From positions 1-64,000 of the forward strand of contig PBAS01000032.1 of the NCBI GenBank assembly GCA_002716625.1: DNA of 64,000 nt, read 5' to 3'. Shown here in pieces: positions 20,858 to 29,926 of the stretch. Made by a program: the position numbers and the translations under genes. Below the pieces are notes generated by a model, which was given only the letters and a program-made list of their open reading frames with translations, was not told the DNA's origin and ran no database searches. Positions within the stretch are counted from its first letter, which is position 1. Every line of letters starts with the position of its first letter. This DNA comes from Phycisphaeraceae bacterium. Lineage in GTDB: Bacteria; Planctomycetota; Phycisphaerae; Phycisphaerales; Phycisphaeraceae.

Positions 20858-20932
20858 CAAGTGGTTCTGTGAAAATCAGGGTCATCGGTCAGCGAATAAC
20901 AGGTGTCAGGGGATATGGCTTTCCAACGGGCC

Positions 20933-20950
20933 TCTTCATCTAGATGAAGA
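20933..20950. other. Perfect 18-base palindrome before tRNA-Leu
   Basis: TCTTCATCTAGATGAAGA reads the same on both strands. It lies 75 bases after the phytanoyl-CoA dioxygenase stop and 77 bases before tRNA-Leu. A CTTCTTTTT run follows about 14 bases later, so it might be a weak terminator for the dioxygenase. A binding site for a dimeric protein is an alternative. Confidence 0.5.
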
Positions 20951-21026
20951 TCACCTGTTCTTCTTTTTGCAATCGGTGCCGGTTTTTAATACTGGATTCC
21001 AACACTGTTATGATACGTCTTGTCCC

Positions 21027-21110
21027 GCGGGCGTGGCGGAATTGGCAGACGCGCTAGATTTAGGTTCTAGTGGGGTAACACCCGTGGAGGTTCGAGTCCT
21101 CTCGCCCGCA
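21027..21110 (+). tRNA. tRNA-Leu, anticodon TAG
   Basis: A complete cloverleaf of 84 bases: acceptor GCGGGCG pairs with CGCCCGC, with discriminator A at 21110. The anticodon stem CTAGA/TCTAG encloses TTTAGGT, giving anticodon TAG. A long variable arm (GGGGTAACACCC), as expected for class II tRNA-Leu, and a GGTTCGAGTCC T-arm follow. CCA is not encoded. Its 3' half is copied at 24225-24281, which makes this gene the likely insertion site of the adjacent island. Confidence 0.97.
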
Positions 21111-21112
21111 TT
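21056..21112 (+). repeat. attL-like direct repeat (3' half of tRNA-Leu)
   Basis: This 57-base segment, from the anticodon stem to two bases past the tRNA end, matches 24225-24281 at 56 of 57 positions; the only difference is C at 21079 against T at 24248 in the variable arm. The flanking bases differ on both sides. This is the layout left by site-specific integration into a tRNA gene. Confidence 0.93.
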
Positions 21113-21195
21113 CGGTTGTAAGCATTGCACTTGCAACATTTGCCATTGATTGGCTTCAGGTCTTATTTTCGGTCTGTATCCCCAGGCGAGTCAAA

Positions 21196-21441
21196 TTAGT
21201 CTGTATTAGATAGGTGTTCGAGGGCGCGTTGCGCGGCATTCTTGTATTCATCCTGGGCCACGTCTTCGATCACAGCGTCCTCGAACTTGGCCATGTATTC
21301 TCGCCGGCTTACATCTGGACTATGCCCAATTGCTCGCGTGTACTGGTACTCGCTCAGGCCAAACTTGAGGAAGTCCCGCTCACAACAGCAACGAAGTACC
21401 TGGAAACCAGGGCGCCACAAAGACCGCCCGTTTGCTGTTCT
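21196..21441 (-). pseudogene. Tyrosine recombinase (integrase), C-terminal remnant
   Basis: About 80 codons on the reverse strand, closed upstream by a stop at 21442-21444, end 86 bases from the tRNA. The segment carries the C-terminal signature of tyrosine recombinases: FQVLR with the second catalytic Arg, AIGHSPDV with the GH box, and SRREYM with the nucleophile Tyr. It resembles planctomycete integrases with FQNLR...GNS...HY. The N-terminal DNA-binding part and first catalytic Arg are missing, so it cannot be active. Its position and direction beside the attachment site fit an integrase of this island. Confidence 0.68.
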
Positions 21442-21458
21442 TCATATCTATAGGTCAA

Positions 21459-22733
21459 ATGGTCACCGTCGTGAACAGATCTCATGCAATAACAGTACTT
21501 GTCACGATCCTGACAACCTTCTCGGCAGGATCGGTAGCGCGACCTGATCCGGCGGCCAAGACATTGACAATGCTCAATCCTTACGATGGCGTCGACTGGA
21601 AGTCCGTGATCAAGGTCCCGTCGGCAACGCACCTGCATATGAAAGAACAAAGTGCTCTGGACCATGGCTACCGCAGTGGTTTAAGGCACTTCCCGATTTC
21701 AAACTACTATCCTTCAGCACCCTACAGCGCCACCACTCGGCTCAGTGACTTCAAGCTGCACCAGACCTGGCCCGTCAAGCGCAACGGCGTCACGATTGAG
21801 CCGCCCATCAACTGGAACAAGCTCATCACCTGGCGGGACGAGCTCAAAGAACCGTTTCGATCAAGTCTTCCCTTCACCGAAACCGAACTGGTCTTTCCTC
21901 ATATTCCAGACGACGTGATTTTGAGCAACAATGCCGAGCACCACGGCTTTACCAACGGCAATCCAAGATGCCACATCTGCGCGCCTGGCTCCTCGTTTTC
22001 CTCGGGCACCTTCGATGTGAAGGGTCGCAATTATCGTCTGCCCGAACACGGGATCCCGATCGGTTTTGGCGGTACATGGCAGCAGGCTTTTACTGAGATG
22101 CTCAAGTTGCTCGACTATCCAGACGGCGGGGGAATCATCATCGCTCATCCTGCATGGCTCTCAGGTCTGTCGGACCAGCAGATCTTCGAGATGCTTGATT
22201 TCGACCAGCGGGTGTTGGGGATTGAGATCTACAATCACGGTGAGCAAATTAGGGATTGGACGAAGAAGCCGGCCGACGAGCTACCGCCAGAACCTGAACC
22301 CGGCTTCGCCCTCAAGCTGTGGGACCGCATCTTGTCGACGGGCCGCCGGTGCTGGGGATTCTGCGTGCCAGATCACGGCGTTGAAAAAGGTGGCGATTGG
22401 CAGGGCCGTAGCGTCTTGCTCGTTTCCCGTTTTTCGGAAAGGCATTGCCTGCGGGCCTATCGCAACGGTAACTTCTACGGGTGCCTGAAGGATAACGGTC
22501 TGACGGTCACAGATTTCCAAGCCACCAAAACTGAGGTCAAGCTACAGACCAATCAGACCGCCAAGATCACGTTCATCACGAACAAGGGGATTGCGAAAAG
22601 CGTCACGGGCACAAGTGCAACTTATGCCATCCCGACGAACGACGGTAAACCTGACGTGGTCTATGTCCGGGTGGAGATATCAGACGAATCTGGCGAACGC
22701 CTGTTCCTGCAGCCGGTCATGTATCACCATTAA
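21459..22733 (+). CDS. Exported PHP-type (CehA/McbA-like) metallohydrolase
   Basis: A 424-residue protein with a signal peptide (HAITVLVTILTTFSAGSVA). Metal-binding segments typical of PHP phosphoesterases follow in order: THLHM, HGIPIGFGG, IIIAHPAW, LGIEIYNHG and WGFCVPDHG. The last 90 residues look like a beta-rich add-on domain. PHP proteins hydrolyse phosphoesters and related bonds; the substrate is not known. The start at 21459 gives a clean signal peptide; an earlier in-frame codon at 21432 would add nine residues. It is island cargo and ends eight bases from the convergent PEP-CTERM gene. Confidence 0.7.
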   Translation: MVTVVNRSHAITVLVTILTTFSAGSVARPDPAAKTLTMLNPYDGVDWKSVIKVPSATHLHMKEQSALDHGYRSGLRHFPISNYYPSAPYSATTRLSDFKLHQTWPVKRNGVTIEPPINWNKLITWRDELKEPFRSSLPFTETELVFPHIPDDVILSNNAEHHGFTNGNPRCHICAPGSSFSSGTFDVKGRNYRLPEHGIPIGFGGTWQQAFTEMLKLLDYPDGGGIIIAHPAWLSGLSDQQIFEMLDFDQRVLGIEIYNHGEQIRDWTKKPADELPPEPEPGFALKLWDRILSTGRRCWGFCVPDHGVEKGGDWQGRSVLLVSRFSERHCLRAYRNGNFYGCLKDNGLTVTDFQATKTEVKLQTNQTAKITFITNKGIAKSVTGTSATYAIPTNDGKPDVVYVRVEISDESGERLFLQPVMYHH

Positions 22734-22740
22734 TCTCACC

Positions 22741-23904
22741 TCAACGGCGGCGGACAAGACACACCAGCCCAACGGCCAAGACCGCCACGGTCGCTGGCTC
22801 AGGAATCAGTGGACTGAAGCCGGCCGAGCGCAACGCCTGAGACAAGGACAACCCTTCCGCCGCGGACCAGTTGGCACCCAGGATGCCCAGGTCCGCGACG
22901 TCGACGACGTTGTCACCGTTGAAATCGCCGTCGTCGAACACCACGTCAGTCATGCCGAAGTTTGCGCCCAGAATGCCGAGGTCTGCCACATCCACCACAC
23001 CGTCGCCGTTGGCGTCACCGGGTATGGGTAAAACATTTTCCGCCCGCACGCCCACGAGAACGTTGTCGAAGAGCACGTTCTCGAATGTGGTCCCGCCGCC
23101 GGCCAGTTGGATGAAATCAAGGTCGTAATGGCCGTTGTACGATTCGAAGTCTGCAATCAGTTTTGTGTCATCGAGCCATAGGTCCAGACGCTGGTTCGAC
23201 GCCTTATAGTGAAGCGTAATCGAACCCTGGCTGAGCTGTCCGGGGATGATAAACTCCTGGCTAGGGCCATTCGAGCCTTCCGGTGCCGGTCCGTAGCGGA
23301 CTTTGTAACGATTGGGCTCGCCATTAAAGAATGAACCCGTCGTGCGGGGCGAATTCGATGCTCGCTTGTCGCTGGCACCAGTAATCGTCAGCATATCGCC
23401 GCCGGTTTGGCTTATGGGTTCAATAAGCTTATCACCGCCAAACGTGTCGCCGGGAGCGGTGTCGACCGTGAAGTCGACCGAAAACACCCAATCAATGTCC
23501 GTCCTCATCGGGTGCCCCTGGTTCGCAATAGCGTCTGGCGCGGGTGTGTCCTTAAACGTCGTCGTGTAGCGCATCGCCCCACAAAGATCCTTACCTTCTC
23601 CCAAGCAGGCGGCGCCGGCCTGGGAAAAGGGTGATGCGGTCAAGAAGTAGCCGTCATCACTCCAACCATTATCTCCGTAATCAACGGGCAAGAAATCCCA
23701 ATTCTCACACTCATTCAAGTAGCCCAGCGTGGGGTGCCGCGGACCATCCTGAACGCAGCCGTCCTCGATGGTGTCGGGGTCTCCAGTATAGGGCACATGG
23801 AGCCCCGGCTCATTGGGGTCGAGAGCCGGCACCGGCGGAGCGGCAAACACGATAATCTCACTGCTAAATACCAGAACTGACAGGAGAATGATCTGACGGT
23901 GCAC
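22741..23904 (-). CDS. PEP-CTERM protein with two dockerin-like repeats (island cargo)
   Basis: A 387-residue exported protein: an N-terminal signal (IILLSVLVFSSEIIVFA), a large middle region rich in beta-strand patterns that may be a lectin-like sandwich, then GDANGDGVVDVADLGILGAN and GDFNGDNVVDVADLGILGAN, two calcium-binding dockerin-like loops. It ends in a PEP-CTERM sorting tail (LIPEPATVAVLAVGL then RRR), normally cut by an exosortase. It starts with GTG and has an AGGGA about nine bases upstream. It is markedly G+C-rich compared with genes outside the island. No exosortase gene is in the window. Confidence 0.85.
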   Translation of the reverse strand: MHRQIILLSVLVFSSEIIVFAAPPVPALDPNEPGLHVPYTGDPDTIEDGCVQDGPRHPTLGYLNECENWDFLPVDYGDNGWSDDGYFLTASPFSQAGAACLGEGKDLCGAMRYTTTFKDTPAPDAIANQGHPMRTDIDWVFSVDFTVDTAPGDTFGGDKLIEPISQTGGDMLTITGASDKRASNSPRTTGSFFNGEPNRYKVRYGPAPEGSNGPSQEFIIPGQLSQGSITLHYKASNQRLDLWLDDTKLIADFESYNGHYDLDFIQLAGGGTTFENVLFDNVLVGVRAENVLPIPGDANGDGVVDVADLGILGANFGMTDVVFDDGDFNGDNVVDVADLGILGANWSAAEGLSLSQALRSAGFSPLIPEPATVAVLAVGLVCLVRRR

Positions 23905-24224
23905 GCGGGTTTATCCCTGAGAAGATCTGCTCCATCTCCATCGATCTGTTTAGGCAAAGGACAAAGCACATTATACAGGATACAGGCCTCATCTCTATAC
24001 GACCCTGCCGAAATACAGTCAAAGATTAATAGGTGGGATGGTGGGCTTGGATCTCGGGCGTCGAAAGGGGTGCGGGGTGGGGGCTGTTGCGGGACAAAGT
24101 TGTATCCCCAGCGTATCCCCAGAAAGTCCGATCGTCGCCAGAACGTCACCCGAGCCTCACCCTACTCACACCGCTTCGCTGCATTGGAACCGCGTTTGGG
24201 CGCAACGAGGCGACACATGAGACA
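23905..24224. other. Gene-free end of the island
   Basis: About 320 bases between the PEP-CTERM gene start and the second tRNA-Leu repeat. Open frames here are short and lack coding features, and no hairpin or repeat was recognised. The segment probably carries the promoter of the reverse-strand PEP-CTERM gene and island debris. Confidence 0.45.
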
Positions 24225-24281
24225 AGATTTAGGTTCTAGTGGGGTAATACCCGTGGAGGTTCGAGTCCTCTCGCCCGCATT
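24225..24281 (+). repeat. attR-like copy of the tRNA-Leu 3' half
   Basis: A 57-base match to 21056-21112 with one difference. It lacks the 5' half of a tRNA and cannot make a functional tRNA. It marks the far boundary of the island and ends seven bases before the stop of the frameshifted PEP-CTERM gene. Confidence 0.93.
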
Positions 24282-24287
24282 GAAATT

Positions 24288-25450
24288 TCAGGGTTGCATG
24301 TTCGTGCAGGCCCTTTGAGGGCGAAAGCCCAGGCAAGTCACCATGAGTGTTAAGACCGCAGACGTTGCTGGTTCAGGAACCAGTACCACAGCTTGGCTAC
24401 GTGTTTGCGCCGCAGTCCAGTTGGCGCCCACGATACCAAGGTCAGCAACATCAACATTTCCGTCGCCATTGAAATCGCCACGCGAAACTATGGCATTGGT
24501 TTGGCCAAAATTGGCGCCGACAATTCCCAAATCTCCCACATCGATTAGGCCACCGCCATTGGCATCACCCGGTAATGAGGAACCGCCGATATTGAGGGTT
24601 AGTTTGGGGCGATGGTCAATATTTGCATGTTCACTGGAGCGGTAGGCCGCTCCATGATTGGGGCCGTCCGGACCGGGAAGAATCGGATTGATCGGGTCAT
24701 GTATGACATTCAACAGTACGCCATAACCAGTCAGGGCGTCTAGAATTGATGTCACATCAATATTAATCAAGCCCTCTTCGACCGGTTGGGTATAGGTGAT
24801 CGAGGCGCTTTCATCATGGTCCACACCATCAGCCGGTCCACAGATATCAATCAGCGCATACATGTTGCCAGTTGCTGGGCAGCCTTGAGCCCAATCCTTT
24901 TTGCCTCGTCGACGTTCCTTGCGGTCACTTCGCCAATGGATGCCAATCCATCTGATGTGCCAAAGTTGATAGACCGAAGCAGTGGAGAAATTCGGATCTG
25001 TCCGCCACTAACTATCGGATCCTTAGTCGTCGCTCTGTTATCTGGATTTCCTGTCGATGCAACGATCGACCCGAGGTCCTCCTGGTTATAAAGAGTAAGC
25101 GTCGCTTGTGTAACCGGTGTATCTGGAGCGATCTGGCCTGCTGCTGTGCCATACACGCGGGCAAAACGTAAAAGCATTTTCCCATACCGAAATATAGGCC
25201 CTGGTTTATCATTGAAGCCAACTTGATTTTGGTAGAAGTGGCCTACCTCCAAGACCGCTGAGGATCCGCCATTGGTTGACCAGTGTTCATACGAACCGCG
25301 ATCGGCAATGGGTTGTTCCAAGGCGACGCGGATCACCGAATCCCGTCCACGCTCGTAACCATTGGCACCATGTTGGAATATGGCGATTTCACCGATGGCC
25401 GGTGCGCCGAGCATAATGCTCACCATCATTATGAACTTGATCTTGGGCAT
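24288..25450 (-). pseudogene. PEP-CTERM protein gene broken by a frameshift
   Basis: Two reverse-strand frames form one protein. The first (25450 to about 24920) has a signal peptide, IAIFQHGANGYERGRDS, and the AAGQIAPDTPVTQATLTLYN segment. The second continues KERRRGKKDWAQG, then AAYRSSEHANIDHRPKLTL, two dockerin-like repeats and the PEP-CTERM tail VPEPATSAVL. The intact paralogue at 26346-27650 aligns across the join (VTAEQKRRGKGNWSQ against VTA + KERRRGKKDW), placing a one-base loss at 24918-24922. Without it the protein would have about 390 residues. A sequencing error cannot be excluded. The family function is unknown. Confidence 0.85.
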
Positions 25451-28549: not shown

Positions 28550-29926
28550 GTGTCAAACAAAATGACTGGTTACTTGTCCGGATTAAGCCTTCCCCGGCAG
28601 GTATTGGCACTTGCGATCTGGCCTTTTATTGAGCAAATGATGGCCGTTTTCGTTGGGACTGTCGATATGGTGGTCGCCGGTCATCTGTCCCCCGAGTCCC
28701 TTGCGGTTGCCGCGGTCGATGCGCTGGGTGTAACCAGCTATATCACGTGGCTGATGGCCTTGGTCTTTTCTGCTGTGGGTGTAGGCGCCGCCGCGTTGAT
28801 CGCCAGGGCTGTAGGTGGTGGTCATAAAGGATTGGCCCATGCCTCGCTTGGTCAGGCCATGTTGATGGCAGTGGTATGTGGCTTGTTGGTCGGGGTGGGC
28901 ACATACATCCTGGCCCAACCCATTGGTCAGGTTTCAGGGCTTGGCGGCGCGGGCCTACATTGGTCAACTGTCTATTTACGTATCGTCAGCTTTGCGTTCC
29001 TTCCGAGTGCTTTGCTGATTATTGGGAACGCTGCACTCCGTGCAGCAGGAGATACCCGTACGCCTTGTGCGGTGATGGCTACTGTTAATATTGCCAATGT
29101 GATCTTCAGTTTGCTCTTTGTGTATGGGCCCAGGCCTATTGGCGGTCATGGTGTAGCGGGTATCGCGGCTGGGACCCTATGCGCATGGGTCATCGGCTCC
29201 GTGGTTACCATCACGGTTCTCATTTGCGGATGGGGGGGCTTGCGGCTTTATATTCACCGGCTTCGTCTTCACCTACACACCGCACGGCGTATTGTGCGTG
29301 TGGCAGTTCCCAATATGTATGAGTCTATATGCGGTATGTGGCTAGGGAATTTCCTGATTCTCATGATAGTTGGTCGGTTGGTGGGCGATGCCACATTGGG
29401 CGCTCACATGATTGCTCTGCGAATCGAGTCGGTTTCGTTTCTCGGTGGATTGGCGTTGGGAATGGCCGCCGCAACTCTCACAGGACAGTATCTGGGGATG
29501 GGTGAGGTTAAAGGTGCCCGATCGGCGGCGGTGATATCAACATGGTTTGCCGCCGCGTACATGGGGATTTGGGGGATAGCCTATTTGGCTGTGCCCACGC
29601 AAATGGTTCGATTAGTAACCAACGCCGAACCACTGATTCGTCAAGCACCTGAAATTCTTCGAATTTATGGTCCCATACAGATCTTTTTGGCCATCATGAT
29701 CGTGTTATCCCACTCGCTGAGAGGTGCTGGGGATACGCGGGCTTCTATGTGGATTACCATTCTGTCCATCTTCTCGATCCGTGTGCCCGGTTGTTATCTC
29801 CTAGGGGTGACATTGGATTTGGGACTCCCCGGTATCTGGCTTGCCATGTGTGGTGAAATGACGTTGCGATCACTGGTGTTCATTTGGCGATTTCGTCAAG
29901 GCCGCTGGGAGAAGGTTGTGGTATAG
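28550..29926 (+). CDS. MATE family efflux transporter
   Basis: About 458 residues with twelve hydrophobic helices in two similar halves: IWPFIEQMMAVFVGTVDMVV opens the first, VAVPNMYESICGMWLGNFLI the second. Repeated ARAVGGG and LRAAGDTRTP / LRGAGDTRAS motifs are typical of MATE proteins, which export organic cations and drugs in exchange for Na+ or H+. The frame is open to GTG 28526, but GTG 28550 has AGGA five bases upstream and is preferred. The substrate is unknown. The transporter has no linked regulator. Confidence 0.92.
   Translation: MSNKMTGYLSGLSLPRQVLALAIWPFIEQMMAVFVGTVDMVVAGHLSPESLAVAAVDALGVTSYITWLMALVFSAVGVGAAALIARAVGGGHKGLAHASLGQAMLMAVVCGLLVGVGTYILAQPIGQVSGLGGAGLHWSTVYLRIVSFAFLPSALLIIGNAALRAAGDTRTPCAVMATVNIANVIFSLLFVYGPRPIGGHGVAGIAAGTLCAWVIGSVVTITVLICGWGGLRLYIHRLRLHLHTARRIVRVAVPNMYESICGMWLGNFLILMIVGRLVGDATLGAHMIALRIESVSFLGGLALGMAAATLTGQYLGMGEVKGARSAAVISTWFAAAYMGIWGIAYLAVPTQMVRLVTNAEPLIRQAPEILRIYGPIQIFLAIMIVLSHSLRGAGDTRASMWITILSIFSIRVPGCYLLGVTLDLGLPGIWLAMCGEMTLRSLVFIWRFRQGRWEKVVV

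Follow-up and report, generated by a model that had tools for sequence, protein, structure and literature searches.

Our analysis of the tRNA-Leu(TAG) locus in the window (the whole 64,000-nucleotide stretch of this Phycisphaeraceae contig) indicated that the short segment behind the tRNA gene is, with a probability of roughly 85%, an ordinary tRNA-integrated genomic island that has been reduced by internal deletion. The island is of a known kind, and what is special about it is its reduced state together with its well-preserved ends.

The tRNA-Leu gene identified by ARAGORN (21027–21110, + strand, anticodon TAG) is intact and its 3' half forms part of attL. The attL core is a 57-bp repeat (21056–21112, +) that extends from the anticodon loop to just beyond the tRNA 3' end, and the attR core (24225–24281, +) is taken to be the original tRNA-Leu 3' fragment in a displaced position. 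The two copies lie in the same orientation and are identical at 56 of 57 positions (one mismatch), and their flanks diverge immediately on either side. A search of the complete 3.35-Mb assembly with the 3' part of the tRNA recovered the copy at 24225–24281 with E = 4e-22; the repeat is no chance match. No second displaced tRNA-Leu(TAG) fragment was found in the assembly, and as the remaining matches were other leucine tRNAs or one contig-end piece, the copy at 24225–24281 is the only displaced fragment.

Directly inside attL, an 81-codon frame (21199–21441, −) matched the C-termini of tyrosine recombinases of 390–535 aa from the order and the class. This remnant of a tRNA-targeting integrase (approximately 80 aa) keeps the catalytic Arg/His/Tyr region, as the LR-motif arginine, the histidine of GHS and the tyrosine nucleophile are all retained in its alignment, and it adjoins the tRNA with its C-terminus facing the tRNA, as in intact islands. 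No further convincing integrase homology was detected by tblastn between the repeats (20900–24400), and the stub was the sole match in its own genome, where no intact integrase of its family was found. The Pfam Phage_integrase domain was present in two of the full-length relatives of the stub that were tested, and the 535-aa relative fell below threshold. Full-length relatives often lie beside a tRNA or tmRNA gene (tRNA-Arg and tRNA-Glu twice each, tRNA-Ala, tRNA-Val and tmRNA), while the closest relative overall is another short remnant, 60% identical, located away from tRNAs in the family member G023. These results bear out the first-pass annotation on several points: the one-mismatch 57-bp direct repeat of the tRNA 3' half with differing flanks was recovered by alignment and genome search, the integrase remnant was located next to the tRNA, and the proposed tyrosine-recombinase integration into tRNA-Leu is supported by both.

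The arrangement of an intact tRNA gene followed downstream by a displaced 3' fragment in the same orientation is the signature of the thousands of tRNA islands in Islander (PMC4383910), in which the anticodon-type site is one of two common kinds. The tRNA-Leu island shares with them this layout, the anticodon-loop (A) type site, a tyrosine integrase sequence inside and a length above 2 kb, its repeat-to-repeat length of 3169 bp (an island of about 3.1 kb) falling within the Islander range of 2–200 kb. The islands counted by Islander are putatively active ones, for which an integrase open reading frame is required (PMC4383910), whereas only the 81-codon C-terminal stub is kept here. As the integrase is reduced to a stub, the island is filed as a degenerate derivative and not as an active island.

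Neither the gene order around tRNA-Leu(TAG) nor the synteny of the genes flanking the island is conserved in the relatives examined. In the 15 relatives searched for an empty site, these genes were near no tRNA-Leu(TAG) locus, and the PhyH gene of the left flank has orthologues in two relatives, neither of them beside a tRNA. Integrases near tRNA-Leu(TAG) at two loci (L023 and L028) were considered as occupants of the site and rejected, as they adjoin a neighbouring tRNA on the opposite strand that was identified by eye as tRNA-Lys. In another genus (L222; G007:C14), an intact integrase of 439 aa lies directly behind tRNA-Leu(TAG). It was discarded as a relative of the stub since it belongs to a different, unrelated family, from which it follows that unrelated integrases use the tRNA-Leu(TAG) site.

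Short repeats were also found at the inner ends of the island. The motif GTATCCCCAG occurs four times in the window, where 0.07 copies are expected, and three of these copies, all in the same orientation, lie at the island ends: one on the left (21176–21185, +; 64 bp inside attL) and two in tandem on the right, 11 bp apart (24102–24122, +; 103–123 bp inside attR). The fourth copy lies in an unrelated gene at 29727, and the motif was absent from the other loci of the same genome that were examined. As the motif was already known when its significance was assessed, a control independent of the motif was added, in which only 3 of 40,000 random segment pairs from the same genome shared any exact 10-mer three times. 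Similar repeats were found at L058, L125, L183, L195, L198 and L212. Islands of this type follow a common layout but differ in motif, and most often carry two copies 11–12 bp apart; the scored test did not detect the pattern in the islands at L184, L185, L191 and L203. Repeats were positioned at +127/+139 and −77/−65 in the tRNA-Gly island described below and at +123/+135 and −80/−68 in the L183 island, and the island of genome G063, which encodes the closest full-length relative of the stub, carries TTCCAACAAG-type repeats at +37/+48 and −121/−109, close on the right to the −123/−112 position in the window. As tandem repeats of this kind also flank other islands, the one with the closest full-length integrase among them, the GTATCCCCAG copies are probably left and right arm-type sites bound by the integrase, an assignment based on sequence and position.

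The window's own genome was sampled by tRNA-centred regions, in which 37 tRNA genes were checked and displaced 3' fragments were identified at three: Leu(TAG), Gly(GCC) and Arg(TCG). All three fragments begin at tRNA position 25–30. The tRNA-Arg(TCG) island (13.4 kb, L145:19912 to L144:13436; G000:C63) is apparently intact and encodes an integrase and a primase/helicase (phrog_239, E = 3e-30), followed by cargo, some of it exported, that consists of a multicopper oxidase, a Kelch/PQQ protein, a pseudopilin-like protein and a PEP-CTERM protein. The tRNA-Gly(GCC) island (4.2 kb, 46-bp repeat, L125:10776–15124; G000:C22; G+C 0.632) holds a 5'-truncated integrase, of which a 224-aa C-terminal fragment is left, and a 1066-aa open reading frame with a signal-peptide-like start. 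To the right of its attR (L125:15124–18459), an Hsp20 gene and an open reading frame with weak phage-family matches are possibly a second element in tandem. At tRNA-Glu, an intact integrase lies beside the tRNA and the contig ends there.

Examination of 60 integrase neighbourhoods from 12 relatives revealed ten distinct islands marked by a displaced tRNA 3' fragment; their inserts measure 3.65–16.4 kb (six between 8.5 and 9.4 kb) and their cargo varies. The 535-aa integrase of G063, the closest full-length relative of the stub, lies behind tRNA-Arg(TCG) in a 9.0-kb island that is bounded by a perfect 47-bp copy of the tRNA-Arg 3' end and holds a few other open reading frames, one of them primase/helicase-like as judged by eye. 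A tRNA-Val island of G034 (L184:8884–18202) contains small membrane-type open reading frames, an ATPase-like one and a PEP-CTERM protein, and may be a filamentous-phage-like provirus. In the chromosome of another relative (G031:C1, 2.55–3.17 Mb), ten similar integrase genes, mostly of about 470 aa, are spaced over 0.6 Mb on one strand.

The history that we favour would begin with a circular element whose attP contained a copy of the tRNA-Leu(TAG) 3' half and which recombined into the chromosomal tRNA by means of its own tyrosine integrase. The copy brought by the element would have rebuilt the tRNA (attL, 21056–21112) and the original 3' half would have been pushed to attR (24225–24281). The ancestor probably had a layout like that of the genome's tRNA-Arg island, in which tRNA, integrase, primase/helicase, cargo and attR follow one another, and probably also resembled the 9.0-kb island of G063. 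A deletion would later have taken out the N-terminal part of the integrase together with the replication module and left the C-terminal stub, the cargo and both ends; if the tRNA-Arg island lost everything from within its integrase as far as its first cargo gene, the layout of both small islands would result. Internal deletion is the best reading of the small size, and it is this step that we infer, as an originally small element that had captured a broken integrase would look identical. With both cores and probable arm sites present, the excision substrate looks complete from the sequence; as no usable integrase is encoded in the island, it would be fixed unless an integrase acts in trans, and it is likely immobile.

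Alternatively, the island may be a mini-island that has lost its autonomy but not its mobility, like MITEs or integrase-less islands, and that depends for excision and integration on the integrase of another element acting in trans; we regard this as unlikely. The intact att cores and arm repeats next to a broken integrase, the open cargo reading frames and the occurrence of two stripped islands in one genome are consistent with it. The lack of an intact integrase of the stub's family in the genome argues against it, as do the failure to find the element again elsewhere and the different cargo of the tRNA-Leu and tRNA-Gly mini-islands, while the retained stub is the expected leftover of a simple deletion. 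The first-pass annotation had proposed a little-described class of mini-island; with an intact island in the same genome and many ordinary ones in relatives, a distinct class is not supported in that form, although the tRNA-Gly island leaves room for a recurrent mini-form. It seems to us doubtful that stripped islands, which retain att cores, arm sites and no more than one or two cargo genes, recur in these bacteria as a non-autonomous form moved in trans by the integrases of co-resident full-length islands.

The first cargo gene encodes a putative PHP-like metallohydrolase of 387 aa as delimited by homology (21570–22733, +), within a listed open reading frame of 21432–22733. The open frame reaches up to 21432, and translation from the ATG at 21459 would give the protein an additional hydrophobic N-terminus; as the homologues begin at an NPY motif and have no signal peptide, the gene probably starts at 21570, and the stretch upstream of it may encode a signal peptide or go untranslated. 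The best relatives, 50–58% identical, come from MAGs labelled Lentisphaerae, Gemmatimonadetes, Latescibacterota and Phycisphaerae (55–58% for the first three), and viral contigs yielded one relative with 32% identity and one 16-residue match. The GC3 of the gene is 0.668 in comparison to a mean of 0.534 (sd 0.058), and this cargo is foreign. Residues H21, H23, H124/H125, H193 and D268/H269 are invariant between the protein and six relatives, and these HxH, H, H and DH motifs point to a possible PHP-type metallohydrolase. The protein had no sequence match in Pfam or PDB; its predicted structure, built with six sequences, was poor (pLDDT 51), and the Foldseek matches of this model covered the C-terminal beta domain only, none of them significant.

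The second cargo gene (22741–23904, −) encodes an exported PEP-CTERM/dockerin-repeat protein of 387 aa, assigned by profile and paralogue searches, with scores just above the cut-offs for PF07589 (20.9 bits, cut-off 20.7) and TIGR02595 (16.4, cut-off 16) and an N-terminal signal peptide recognised by eye. It belongs to a family with about ten paralogues in its own genome and almost none elsewhere in the order, and no relatives were found in viral contigs. Neither cargo reading frame matched phage structural families in Pfam or NCBIfam. The two cargo genes of the first-pass annotation were thus both recovered between the repeats and their distribution in relatives agrees with its reading, as the PHP-like gene had no relative at E 1e-10 in any of 300 other genomes of the order and the PEP-CTERM family is nearly confined to its own genome, with no close relative beyond it. 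The description of the cargo as surface or exported held for one gene; since the PHP-like homologues lack a signal peptide, only the PEP-CTERM protein is clearly exported. PEP-CTERM genes were found in 5 of 13 islands, but an enrichment in islands was rejected, as five genes in 125 kb are no denser than elsewhere (background 0.027–0.043 per kb). Immediately to the right of attR, a further gene of the PEP-CTERM family, which has about 20 matches in this genome, is split over two frames (24288–25450, −; 24288–24863 and 24851–25450) and is either a frameshifted pseudogene or a sequence error.

The near confinement of this family to its own genome would also fit a composite or nested remnant, in which the stub and att repeats are old and a PEP-CTERM gene of the host lineage was recombined or inserted later. 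This seems improbable, as the cargo gene has a GC3 of 0.664 in the shared region, outside the 0.457–0.564 of its paralogues (8 distinct ones, as two pairs of loci each picked one gene) and near that of the PHP-like gene, and as the intact tRNA-Arg island likewise carries a PEP-CTERM gene. The gene therefore belongs to a paralogue family of the host lineage and has a donor-like composition, which indicates that it probably came from a related donor of higher G+C and not from its own genome, and from their similar GC3 the two cargo genes look co-acquired from such a donor. Overall, the patch of raised G+C reported earlier between the repeats was reproduced (0.558 in comparison to 0.515 ± 0.025 in equal-sized windows of the same genome, top 4%), and the raw tetranucleotide distance was in about the top 2%. 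As a sign of foreign origin, the G+C stood, but the tetranucleotide bias after removal of G+C was unremarkable, with 12.6% of the genome's own segments equally far out. Although duplication can produce short repeats of tRNA genes, it is highly improbable that the tRNA 3' half was merely duplicated on the spot with no mobile element involved, given the integrase stub, foreign cargo and arm repeats and the two other islands of the genome, whose breakpoints follow the same logic. The structure also differs from the tandem tRNA duplication without insertion that the earlier reading had named as a refutation.

Among other known systems, phage satellites and tycheposons (PMC11389934; PMC10872708) resemble these islands in their tRNA-targeted tyrosine recombinase and host-useful cargo, and the tRNA-Arg island is also like them in combining an integrase and a primase/helicase with no recognised phage structural gene, whereas the tRNA-Leu island has neither a replication gene nor an intact recombinase. 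MITEs and CALINs (PMC11389934) similarly keep their recombination ends after loss of the recombinase; the tRNA-Leu island differs from them in being single copy, in its recombination system and in showing no sign of movement in trans.

In summary, the tRNA-Leu element, read as an island cut down by deletion, is in itself the ordinary outcome of a known process. The geometry common to the arm repeats allows the attachment sites used by these integrases to be described in concrete, testable terms. A single genome contains tRNA islands at the intact, half-deleted and nearly bare stages, which illustrates how cargo becomes a fixed part of the chromosome in a little-studied lineage.
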